Assembly: GCA_020724265.1 (NCBI GenBank)
Contig: DYHH01000020.1
Coordinates: 1-64,000 of the forward strand
DNA from: Melioribacter roseus
GTDB taxonomy: Bacteria > Bacteroidota > Ignavibacteria > Ignavibacteriales > Melioribacteraceae
DNA length: 64,000 nt
Direction: 5' to 3'
Below the pieces are notes generated by a model, which saw nothing but the letters and a program-made list of their open reading frames with translations, was not told the DNA's origin and searched no databases. A program made the translations under genes and the position numbers. This document shows positions 58,785 to 62,392 of the stretch, piece by piece (within the stretch, counting starts at the first letter, position 1; each line of letters starts with the position of its first letter).

Positions 58785-59837
58785 TTATTTTATCTTACTC
58801 AAGAACTCATCAAAAATAAATTCGGTATCCACCGGACCTGGTGCAGCTTCCGGATGAAATTGTACCGACATTATCGGTAATTCTTTATGAATAATTCCTT
58901 CATTGGTTTTGTCATTTAGGTTTTCAAACCAAACATCCCATTCTTTTGGTAATGTCTGAGTATCAACTGCAAAGCCGTGATTTTGTGAAGTTACAAAACA
59001 CCGATTGTTTTTTTTATTAATAACAGGTTGATTCTGACTTCGATGACCATATTTCATTTTATAAGTTTTTGCTCCGGCTGCAAGTGAAACAATTTGATGC
59101 CCCATACAAATACCAAGTATAGGTTTTCCAAGAGTAATAATCTCTTTTGCTGTGTTGACAAGATCGTGATACATTTCCGGGTTACCCGGACCATTGCTAA
59201 ACAATACCGCATCAAAATCTGTTTGTTTATAATCATAATTCCATGGAACGCGTTTTACTTTATATCCTCTGCTAACAATATTTCTAACAATATTCTCTTT
59301 ACAACCGCAATCATAAAGAAGAATAGTTTTACCTTTTCCGTATTCCACAACATCTTTAGTTGCAACTTTTTCAAATAAATTAATTGTATCCGGGTTAAAG
59401 AAATCAATGGGATCGGTATCTAATTCAATTTTACCGAGCATTGTACCATTTTCTCGAATAAGCTTAGTTAGTTCTCTTGTATCAACTTCACACAAACCGG
59501 GTATGTTATATTTTTCCATCCATCTAGATAATGGATTGAAAGCATTCCAGTGGCTGAAATCATTAGAATAATCTGAGATTATCAATCCGCTTATTTTAAT
59601 TCCTATTGATTCGAAAAAAGTGGAATTAATTTCAATTTCTTTTTCAATTCCGTAATTACCAATTAATGGGAAAGTTAAAACTAAGATTTGTCCGGTGTAA
59701 GAAGGGTCTGTAAGAGTTTCGGGGTAACCAACCATACCGGTATTGAAAACGATCTCCCCTGCTGCCGATTTAGCCGCCCCAAATAATTTTCCTTGAATGG
59801 AAGTTCCGTTTTCAAAAACAAGTTTGGCTGTGTTTAT
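58785..59837 (-). CDS. carA: Carbamoyl-phosphate synthase small subunit with probable ATA start
   Basis: Glutamine amidotransferase subunit supplying ammonia to CarB. The catalytic Cys lies in GICMGHQIVSL, the His-Glu pair in QFHPEAAPGP. The frame's first ATG (59735) would begin at M-V-G-Y-P, losing the conserved N-terminus. The upstream sequence, in frame, reads I-N-T-A-K-L-V-F-E-N-G-T-S-I-Q-G...GEIVFNTG, exactly the usual CarA start, and a TGA blocks the frame four codons further up. No ATG, GTG or TTG lies in that stretch. ATA at 59835-59837 has GGAG seven bases ahead and gives 350 residues. A promoter is 30 bases upstream. A sequencing error is the main alternative. Confidence 0.9.
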   Translation of the reverse strand: MNTAKLVFENGTSIQGKLFGAAKSAAGEIVFNTGMVGYPETLTDPSYTGQILVLTFPLIGNYGIEKEIEINSTFFESIGIKISGLIISDYSNDFSHWNAFNPLSRWMEKYNIPGLCEVDTRELTKLIRENGTMLGKIELDTDPIDFFNPDTINLFEKVATKDVVEYGKGKTILLYDCGCKENIVRNIVSRGYKVKRVPWNYDYKQTDFDAVLFSNGPGNPEMYHDLVNTAKEIITLGKPILGICMGHQIVSLAAGAKTYKMKYGHRSQNQPVINKKNNRCFVTSQNHGFAVDTQTLPKEWDVWFENLNDKTNEGIIHKELPIMSVQFHPEAAPGPVDTEFIFDEFLSKIK

Positions 59838-59864
59838 TGAATTACTCCGTCAAAATTGTTGGCG

Positions 59865-59955: not shown

Positions 59956-61797
59956 TTAATACACTGCTACGTTAGCACTTAATTCGTTACTCTCAATTGG
60001 AAGTAATTTTAACAACTTCATTTGTTCTTTCATCGTTTTAAATTCTTCTTCCAGTACAAGTAGATCATGCATAATTGTTCTATTTATTTTCAATAAATCC
60101 GAAGAGAATAAATTTTTATAGTACTCTATTCCATCAGATATATTTTTTTGAAATGTGTCAAAATATTTTAATTTACCGATAGAAGAATTATCTTCAACTT
60201 CTTTGATTTCCTCCTTCAAATAGTTGAGATAAAGTTTCATTTCTTTAATAAACATATTAGGGCGATCTTTTCTGCTAATGAGATTTAATCTGCCATATAT
60301 GTGGTCTATCATTTCTTTCAACGACACAATTTTAGAAAAATAAGCTAAGTTTGGGCCCGGACAAATTAACACACCATCACCGTCAGTTTTTTCCGCTGCA
60401 TCATTCATTTTAAGAACCGAAGTTGCTAATCCAACACAAAGACATGCTTTATCAATAATCTTTTTGTACTGTGAATCAAAATTAGTTTTGTCTAGATTTT
60501 GAGACTTAAGTTGATCAATCTTTTTTGTTTGATAAGTTATTGATGCAGTGCAAATTGCTTTTTCGCTAAACTCGGTGTTTGATTGTAAATATTTTTTGGG
60601 GCAAGGACTTCCGGGTTTTCCGTTAAGAGCATTTTCTAATTTTTCGATATCTTTTGAATTTCCTCTTATGCTGTTAAAAGGAACTCCAAGCGGAGATATT
60701 CTGCTTAAATAAAGATCCTCTTCGGTTGCATTAGTTAATAGCGATAAAGTATTTTGATCGACATTTGTTGCTTCCGGAACAAGAAGAAAAGGTGTTCCCC
60801 ACCCAACGGAATCAACTTGATAATATTCGAGAAGAAATTTTTGCTCGTCAAAAGTACCAACGCCGCCTTGTGCGGTAATTTTAATATCGCGCGGTAGATC
60901 ATTTGCTAATCTATTCTTTTTCTTAAGTGCATCTATATAAATTTCATGGGTTGTATTAATCAACAATTCACGGTTGGTTTTAAATTCTTCGAGAATAGGT
61001 CCCAGCAAATAGCCATCTGTTGCGAAAGCATGTCCGCCGCAATTAAGTCCCGATTCAATCCTGTATTCTGAGATCCATATACCCTTTTTTGCCAGGTATT
61101 TACCTTGAATTATTGCCGAACGATAATCACTTACTTTTAGAATTATTTTCTTATTCAGTTCGCCATTTTCATTTGGGAAAAAGTCTTCAAATTCTTCGAA
61201 GTAACTATAAAGCCTTGGGTTCATACCGGCGGATAAAACAATGGAAGATTTCAATTTACTGTTGGCAAAGCCACGCAACGAAGCATGTGCATCATTATAA
61301 ATTACCGGTAACTGTAAATCTCTATTGTAATTAGGTTTATCAACTTTGGTCATAATGTTGACGTCAATATTCCCGGGCTTAACCTTAAGAAGAACCCACT
61401 CCTTTATTACCTCCAAGGCGTTATTCTCTAATGCTTCATTGTACTTAATTTTCAGATCGGAATCATCGGGCAACAATTCAATATATTTTGCAAAATCACT
61501 ATGTTCTTTCCCATATGAATTTTTAAGTTTCTCAAAGTTATCTTGTACAATATCATCAACTAAATTAAGATAAGCAGTAATTCGTTTGGCACGGTAATCT
61601 TCTTCTTTTGTTGATATCGGTTCGTATTCAACATCAAAGTTTTTGCAATGGTGTTTTCTCATTTTTTCAATAAGATCATCATCAACAATTGAAATGACTG
61701 AATCAATACCAAAATGAGCAACTTTAATCGGTGTATCTATTGAGAAACCGAGACCCATTACAGGTATATGAAATTTATGTATTGGCTTGTTAATCAT
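59956..61797 (-). CDS. Uncharacterised 613-residue protein, possibly a TIM-barrel flavoprotein
   Basis: I do not recognise a named family. It begins HKFHIPVMGLGFSIDTPIKVAHFGIDSVISIVDD, similar to the entry of nitronate monooxygenase and other FMN barrels, and later has ITAQGGVGTFDEQKFLLEYYQVDSVGWGTPFLLVPE, which matches the barrel's Gly-rich phosphate-binding region. Residues about 230-285 add SEYRIESGLNCGGHAFATDG. The C-terminal third holds Cys residues (GSPCPKKY, KAICTAS, KACLCVGL, LICPGP) that could bind an iron-sulfur cluster, then helices. No signal peptide. Start ATG, divergent from crcB with an operator-like sequence between. Confidence 0.75.
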   Translation of the reverse strand: MINKPIHKFHIPVMGLGFSIDTPIKVAHFGIDSVISIVDDDLIEKMRKHHCKNFDVEYEPISTKEEDYRAKRITAYLNLVDDIVQDNFEKLKNSYGKEHSDFAKYIELLPDDSDLKIKYNEALENNALEVIKEWVLLKVKPGNIDVNIMTKVDKPNYNRDLQLPVIYNDAHASLRGFANSKLKSSIVLSAGMNPRLYSYFEEFEDFFPNENGELNKKIILKVSDYRSAIIQGKYLAKKGIWISEYRIESGLNCGGHAFATDGYLLGPILEEFKTNRELLINTTHEIYIDALKKKNRLANDLPRDIKITAQGGVGTFDEQKFLLEYYQVDSVGWGTPFLLVPEATNVDQNTLSLLTNATEEDLYLSRISPLGVPFNSIRGNSKDIEKLENALNGKPGSPCPKKYLQSNTEFSEKAICTASITYQTKKIDQLKSQNLDKTNFDSQYKKIIDKACLCVGLATSVLKMNDAAEKTDGDGVLICPGPNLAYFSKIVSLKEMIDHIYGRLNLISRKDRPNMFIKEMKLYLNYLKEEIKEVEDNSSIGKLKYFDTFQKNISDGIEYYKNLFSSDLLKINRTIMHDLLVLEEEFKTMKEQMKLLKLLPIESNELSANVAVY

Positions 61798-61875: not shown

Positions 61876-61905
61876 ATGTAAAAGAAATGTAAAAGATTTT
61901 TACAT
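61876..61905. promoter_or_regulatory. Operator candidate with three half-sites
   Basis: ATGTAAAAG occurs at 61876-61884 and 61887-61895, exactly 11 bases apart (one helical turn), and the second copy forms a perfect palindrome with TTTTACAT (61898-61905), around a GAT centre. The arrangement looks like a site for a dimeric regulator with a flanking half-site. It lies in the 226-base gap between the unknown flavoprotein-like gene and crcB. The rest of the gap is AT-rich with no riboswitch. Confidence 0.45.
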
Positions 61906-62023: not shown

Positions 62024-62392
62024 TTGATTAATCTGTTTATTGTTTTTATCGGTGCCGGTATCGGCGGGAGTTTGAGATATTTAATTTCGGATTTTGCTGC
62101 GAAAAATTTTTCAGTTTATTTCCCATTCGGGACATTGATTGTGAATTTAATCGGCAGTCTAATACTTGGTTTTATGATATTCGGATTTGATGAGAAAGGA
62201 TTAATAAATGATAAAATAAAACTCTTTATAGGAATAGGTTTTTGCGGCGGTTTAACAACCTTTTCAACTTTTTCGTACGAGACTTTTTATTTACTTAAAA
62301 ATACCCAATTTCTTCTTGCAACACTTAATATCACATTGAATGTACTAACTACAATATTAGGCATTTATTTAGCTTACATAGCTGTGAGATAA
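62024..62392 (+). CDS. crcB: Fluoride channel CrcB/Fluc
   Basis: 122-residue four-helix fluoride exporter, working as an antiparallel dimer. The GAGIGGSLRYL start, GTLIVNLIGSLILG and the sodium-site GFCGGLTTFSTF are all seen. The start is TTG (62024-62026), eight bases after AGGA. There is no sequence resembling the fluoride riboswitch consensus upstream. The gene pairs with the DUF190 gene. Confidence 0.95.
   Translation: MINLFIVFIGAGIGGSLRYLISDFAAKNFSVYFPFGTLIVNLIGSLILGFMIFGFDEKGLINDKIKLFIGIGFCGGLTTFSTFSYETFYLLKNTQFLLATLNITLNVLTTILGIYLAYIAVR

Follow-up and report, generated by a model that had tools for sequence, protein, structure and literature searches.

FabX of Helicobacter pylori (HP0773) is described as a dehydrogenase/isomerase of acyl-acyl carrier protein (acyl-ACP) in unsaturated fatty acid (UFA) synthesis, with flavin mononucleotide (FMN) and a [4Fe-4S] cluster as cofactors (PMC8626469). 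In this enzyme, H182 is catalytic; the side chains of N99, E175, Q240, and T243 contact the flavin; and C300, C304, C308, and C320 of a C-terminal subdomain bind the cluster (PMC8626469). According to the same paper, FabK has the barrel and the catalytic His of FabX, and the cluster is lacking in every other characterised member of the nitronate monooxygenase (NMO) family (PMC8626469). Here we analyse the gene of a 613-residue FabX-like flavoprotein in a 64,000-nucleotide stretch of Melioribacter roseus DNA (assembly GCA_020724265.1, contig DYHH01000020.1, positions 1 to 64,000; this whole stretch is called the window below). With a probability of roughly 0.57, we take the protein to be a divergent FabX-like enzyme, carrying FMN and an iron–sulfur (Fe-S) centre, that would form the double bond of UFAs in acyl-ACP when oxygen is scarce.

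A further system is close in kind. In PMC11300592, a citing paper, UfaA of Neisseria gonorrhoeae (NGO1024) is reported to act in anaerobic UFA synthesis with an electron acceptor given as unknown, a role like the one proposed here; it is about 36% identical to a FabX homologue of gut Bacteroidales, expressed there in Bacteroides thetaiotaomicron (B. theta), and by this description UfaA is presumably a canonical FabX member. In Fusobacterium nucleatum, inhibition of FabK is reported to be partly offset by a FabX homologue (PMC11091888).

Predicted fold and active site in comparison with FabX

The AlphaFold2 model of the protein (69-row alignment; mean predicted local distance difference test score, pLDDT, 84.1; predicted template modelling score, pTM, 0.88) shows an FMN-type triosephosphate isomerase (TIM) barrel with the fold of the NMO/FabK/FabX superfamily. 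The top five rows of the Foldseek listing are H. pylori FabX (best E-value 1.5e-10), followed by PfaD and enoyl-reductase domains and, lower, by NMO; inosine monophosphate dehydrogenase (IMPDH), 3-deoxy-D-arabino-heptulosonate 7-phosphate (DAHP) synthase, and other TIM-barrel rows were treated as fold background. VIA-align likewise gives its top five rows to FabX, the best with Z 24.4, a root-mean-square deviation of 3.1 Å, 326 of 363 residues aligned, and 21% identity in the structural alignment; model residues 2–503 lie on FabX residues 6–363, hence the alignment covers the Fe-S subdomain of FabX. The runners-up are FabK (Z about 22) and PfaD and NMO (about 17–19). As FabX is ahead of FabK by about 2 Z units, the model gives strong support to the fold class and a moderate preference for FabX over FabK as the closest fold.

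Profile–profile comparison of the 69-row alignment with FabX and 30 of its relatives yields an E-value of 1.9e-7; a 133-row alignment of the family gives 6.6e-8 (probability 94.6) against FabX and relatives. The aligned pairs are GGH254–256 with GGH180–182 of FabX, N147 with N99, E248 with E175, G311–G312 with G220–G221, and T335 with T243. H256, N147, E248, G311, and G312 are present in all 133 rows, which are not all independent (L081 is the window itself, and L001 and L082 are near-identical); position 335 holds Thr or Ser in 132 of them. A few rows are incomplete, either because a contig ends or because of the start codon chosen (e.g., L105, L109, L143, L144, L147, and L160). The likeness to FabX (PDB 7e1q, 9lt5) extends over the FMN TIM barrel, the His of the GGH loop, the Asn and Glu flavin contacts, the GG phosphate loop, and the C-terminal Cys-rich subdomain. 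The helix matching the positively charged, ACP-docking helix of FabX carries R226, K233, K237, and K238, mostly conserved.

The protein differs from FabX in length (613 versus 363 residues), with a helical insertion in the barrel (helices 40–53, 68–93, 101–108, 114–124, and 128–138 of the model) and additional helices at the C-terminus. It also differs in its Cys residues. There are seven in total, and C253, C399, C416, C452, C454, and C479 are kept in 133 of 133 rows; five of these six fall within residues 399–479, with the spacing C399-x16-C416-x35-C452-x-C454-x24-C479, against C300, C304, C308, and C320 in FabX, and C253, beside GGH, is extra. Judged by its cysteines, the protein, FabX-like in outline, falls outside the FabX family. 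Closer in this respect are 420-residue FabX relatives (e.g., L115, L117, and L130), which have the same barrel and show the pattern C..C..CxC..C, but are shorter and lack the C-terminal helices. These relatives (L115–L142), with a CLC-G Cys pattern, occur in two families of the phylum and never share a genome with the family studied here. FabK and NMO have the barrel fold, the FMN site, and the His, but lack the Cys-rich subdomain.

A preliminary description of the window had proposed an uncharacterised FMN-barrel enzyme, long for a nitronate monooxygenase, whose Cys-rich C-terminal third might hold an Fe-S cluster. The model and both fold searches agree on the barrel; the length exceeds the approximately 320–370 residues of FabK and NMO; the Cys-rich part stands out as given above; and the cluster is plausible in that FabX holds its [4Fe-4S] in the corresponding subdomain (PMC8626469). 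That the role is likely in UFA synthesis and not in nitronate oxidation, what kind of operator the gene has, and with which genes it forms a regulon had been missed.

Upstream elements and the genes that share them

In the genus and its neighbours, a 19-bp direct repeat with an 11-bp period, CTTTTACAnnnCTTTTACA, is kept about 98 bp upstream of the gene. The preliminary description had rightly given the gene an operator candidate, complex in kind, yet the conserved element is this direct repeat and no palindrome; the palindrome TGTAAAAATCTTTTACA was dropped as operator, since relatives retain the direct repeat instead. The 3.77-Mb genome of the window contains two exact matches to CTTTTACAnnnCTTTTACA, compared with about 0.01 expected from base composition: one before the flavoprotein gene, the other about 72 bp before the gene of a 330-residue acyl-ACP desaturase (PF03405, E 2.8e-101). 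At two mismatches, seven more matches are seen, six of them intragenic and the seventh between the members of a divergent pair. This pair consists of a histidine kinase followed by a PhoB-type response regulator on one side and a B12-binding radical S-adenosylmethionine (radical-SAM)/DUF4070 protein on the other; the kinase has two transmembrane segments by eye. The locus (L198:7425-10982, G000:C9) shares the predicted operator of the flavoprotein gene, and is possibly a membrane-lipid sensing system of Ignavibacteria.

The repeat was also surveyed in 17 relatives of our choice. All 11 exact copies lie before the flavoprotein gene, the desaturase gene, or the kinase–regulator/radical-SAM pair. 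With at most one mismatch allowed, 18 of 26 copies do so (10, 2, and 6, respectively), and the remaining eight are inside genes or beside unrelated genes. In genome G041, which has two intact copies of the flavoprotein gene (L087 on C31 and L173 on C25), the exact repeat stands upstream of only one.

PhoB-type regulators bind direct repeats of such spacing, and the regulator encoded at the divergent locus is for this reason a natural candidate binder, which we suppose to recognise the repeat. Since TTTACA-N5-TTTACA resembles a Gram-positive PhoP box, a Pho-box reading of the repeat was considered and set aside: the regulator is under the curated PhoB cut-offs and no exact site is left for pst genes (the pst genes themselves were not searched).

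In Flavobacteriia, the direct repeat is absent before the gene of this family, and another motif, ATGATnnnnATCAT, is found with at most one mismatch in 25 of 110 upstream regions, drawn from loci of the whole family, compared with a mean of 2.9 in shuffles. In a second count, limited, as are the following ones, to the matches listed, it precedes the gene in 26 of 80 loci, as well as four of five HemN-like neighbour genes. Other bearers are a gene resembling Cu-nitrite reductase (nirK-like) with a cytochrome c domain, a copper-ATPase gene (CcoI-like), some Rrf2 and NadA genes, and the gene of a small cytochrome c, judged NorC-like by eye. Genes of cbb3 oxidase, UspA, HemN, Rrf2, and NadA/NadB recur near the flavoprotein gene in 5–12 of 80 loci. 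The FNR box TTGATnnnnATCAA is not enriched (6 of 110 at one mismatch versus 3.95 in shuffles). The genes of the ATGATnnnnATCAT set suggest a low-oxygen/denitrification regulon under a putative CRP/FNR-type factor.

Distribution of the family and the locus

The family is matched in 42 of 58 relatives (the count includes the window's own genome) and in 111 of 296 genomes sampled from the phylum, mostly at full length and with about 45–89% identity. A contig scan yielded at least 80 loci, titled as Ignavibacteria, Melioribacteraceae, Flavobacteriia, Bacteroidales, Neomarinimicrobiota, and a few metagenome-assembled genomes labelled otherwise. Alignment A1 comprises 68 of these loci; L048, with stops within the range given, was dropped, and L026, L027, L040, L046, L050, L053, L055, L056, L063, L068, and L075, most of them close to retained rows, were left out. 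Alignment A2 holds 45 of the 69 rows of A1. In one genome (G146:C1:4371161-4372865), a second copy, fragmented into several frames with stops, lies beside the intact one.

Among the 296 genomes, a PF03405 desaturase is encoded in 53 of 111 carriers and in 27 of 185 others, and any desaturase (PF03405 or PF00487) in 93 of 111 and 93 of 185, respectively. FabA (TIGR01749) scores above its cut-off in one genome and at E<1e-60 in three, none of them carriers. In the window's genome, the FabX query also matches a separate, shorter protein (G000:C50, a 317-residue frame), which is probably FabK.

As to known families, none is found for the protein in Pfam or NCBIfam at a credible E-value; GATase (Pfam, E 0.1), one smaller Pfam match, and PRK00420 (NCBIfam, far under the cut-off) were rejected as chance. 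A Pfam scan of 69 members gives scattered weak matches to unrelated, mostly helical families, taken as noise. No enzyme is found in PDB either with the sequence or with the A1 profile; the best matches of the profile, apolipoproteins, fall on the C-terminal helices and were judged coiled-coil noise. Hence, no characterised family is matched by sequence, and the gene is still unassigned in this sense, as earlier stated. No description of the family was found in the literature library, searched by titles and abstract openings.

The features of the locus are given in the table. The reading frame starts with ATG and is free of internal stops; its single full-length copy in the genome, together with the matches in relatives and across the phylum, bears out the initial view of it as a real gene, not a chance frame. 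On one side it adjoins a crcB-like gene on the opposite strand (62024–62392), and on the other carA and carB on its own strand, all named by eye. The gene had also been called monocistronic, which its surroundings do not support: carA is next on this strand, with no terminator-like site seen in the gap. The carA frame spans 58785–59735 (minus), with the start probably near 59840. Its conserved N-terminus extends upstream of the first ATG (59733–59850, minus), where no in-frame ATG, GTG, or TTG exists; the earliest credible start codon is ATA (or a different rare one), downstream of a GGAG-like stretch, and L001 and L082 keep the same codons.

Table. Coordinates of the flavoprotein gene, its protein regions, and its upstream repeat in the window
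Feature	Position	Strand	Remark
Whole gene, 613-residue FabX-like flavoprotein	59956..61797	minus	stop codon included
FMN-type TIM barrel	60613..61797	minus	residues 1-395
Helical insertion in barrel	61378..61680	minus	residues 40-140, mostly unmatched in the FabX alignment
Invariant Cys-Gly-Gly-His active-site loop	61030..61041	minus	residues 253-256; H256 corresponds to catalytic H182 of FabX
Cys-rich subdomain	60283..60612	minus	residues 396-505, at the position of the FabX [4Fe-4S] subdomain
Additional long C-terminal helices	59959..60282	minus	residues 506-613, without FabX counterpart
Direct repeat CTTTTACATTTCTTTTACA, predicted response-regulator site	61877..61895	minus	98 bp before the start codon

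Proposed role and competing explanations

As a UFA-forming structural template, an operator shared with a desaturase, and a low-oxygen site converge on the same family, the simplest reading is that the enzyme is a counterpart to the desaturase that works without oxygen or at low oxygen; a role in UFA synthesis is likely. The analysis shows the gene with its conservation and distribution, the predicted fold, the matching residues, and the common operators; the exact reaction with its cofactors, substrate, and electron acceptor, as well as the identity of the regulators, we infer as follows. If the enzyme works as FabX does, FMN, assisted by His256 of the active-site loop, would take hydrogen from a medium-chain saturated acyl-ACP, giving trans-2-enoyl-ACP, which would then be isomerised to the cis-3 form. 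The electrons would leave via the Fe-S centre, and would more probably reach a protein, or another acceptor suited to low oxygen, than the O2 to which FabX passes them in vitro; speculatively, the Cys residues and helices in which the protein differs from FabX may serve a different acceptor. In Ignavibacteria, a two-component system with the PhoB-type regulator would govern the gene together with those of the O2-dependent acyl-ACP desaturase and of the B12 radical-SAM enzyme, while in Flavobacteriia the gene apparently falls within the low-oxygen/denitrification regulon.

Several observations weigh against this interpretation. At the level of the protein, against three canonical FabX rows by themselves, the family profile scores weakly (E 4.6e-4, probability 33); Q240 of FabX, an FMN contact, pairs with an invariant Gly of the family; and the FabX ligand set CX3CX3CX11C (C300, C304, C308, C320) is not kept, with at most C454 aligned to C320. 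Within the domain, the confidence of the model is lowest precisely at the predicted active-site loop 254–256, which would not be surprising where the flavin is missing from the model. Predicted in isolation, the C-terminal part reaches a pTM of 0.45, too poor for use in a fold search. At the level of regulation, 7 of the 17 relatives have no site (at most one mismatch) before the flavoprotein gene, and three relatives bearing PF03405 (G013, G039, and G041) have none before the desaturase gene; gene neighbourhoods are variable, and none of the neighbours that recur in the listed loci is a gene of fatty-acid synthesis. At the level of genomes, a desaturase is not found in 18 of 111 carriers. In favour of the interpretation, FabX-like proteins (E<1e-20) are seen in none of the 111 carriers and in 64 of 185 other genomes, but the genome counts, those of the desaturases included, ignore kinship, and the 64 genomes belong to few families, most of them to one (f24), so that few independent lineages underlie this mutual exclusion.

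The best of the alternatives, in our view unlikely, is that the protein is a FabK-like enoyl-ACP reductase or a PfaD-like trans-acting enoyl reductase that saturates lipid intermediates at low oxygen, with a Cys-rich part that is structural or carries electrons inward, not outward. After FabX, the fold searches rank FabK and PfaD best (Z about 22 and 18–19), chains of PfaD also exceed 500 residues, and the barrel with the catalytic His is common to FabK and FabX (PMC8626469). However, the probable FabK of the same genome suggests that a reductase is already present; the protein has no NCBIfam match; no polyketide or polyunsaturated fatty acid synthase is recognised among the recurrent neighbours of the listed loci; and FabX is the better fit both for the Cys-rich subdomain and for co-regulation with a desaturase.

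Still less probable is a modification of membrane lipids other than the first UFA double bond, e.g., of branched-chain or hydroxy acyl groups, within a membrane regulon to which the desaturase and the B12 radical-SAM protein would also belong. The operators that the flavoprotein gene shares with the PF03405 and the radical-SAM/DUF4070 genes, as well as the presence of desaturases in most carriers, would fit it, but the best structural template works on plain acyl-ACP (PMC8626469), and the low-oxygen regulation in Flavobacteriia suggests replacement of an O2-dependent step. Finally, a low-oxygen or nitrosative-stress flavoprotein, i.e., an NMO-like detoxifier with no lipid role, would account for the superfamily fold and for the flavobacterial site before HemN-like, Cu-nitrite-reductase-like, and cytochrome c genes, but is very improbable, as it leaves unexplained the operator that in Ignavibacteria the gene shares only with the desaturase and the kinase–regulator/radical-SAM promoter, NMO structures rank lower in the fold searches, and the FabX paper denies the cluster to all other characterised NMO-family members (PMC8626469).

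The FabX-like interpretation bears on oxygen-free UFA synthesis in bacteria without FabA. A conserved enzyme family, present in more than one in three genomes sampled from the phylum and so far without a family model, gains a likely function. Its operator links it to a desaturase that depends on oxygen, and the link in other lineages is to respiration at low oxygen. More tentatively, at a little under even odds, the family may be the missing oxygen-independent UFA route in much of Bacteroidota: a separate flavin/Fe-S family with its own cluster site and a non-oxygen acceptor, switched together with the desaturase or instead of it.
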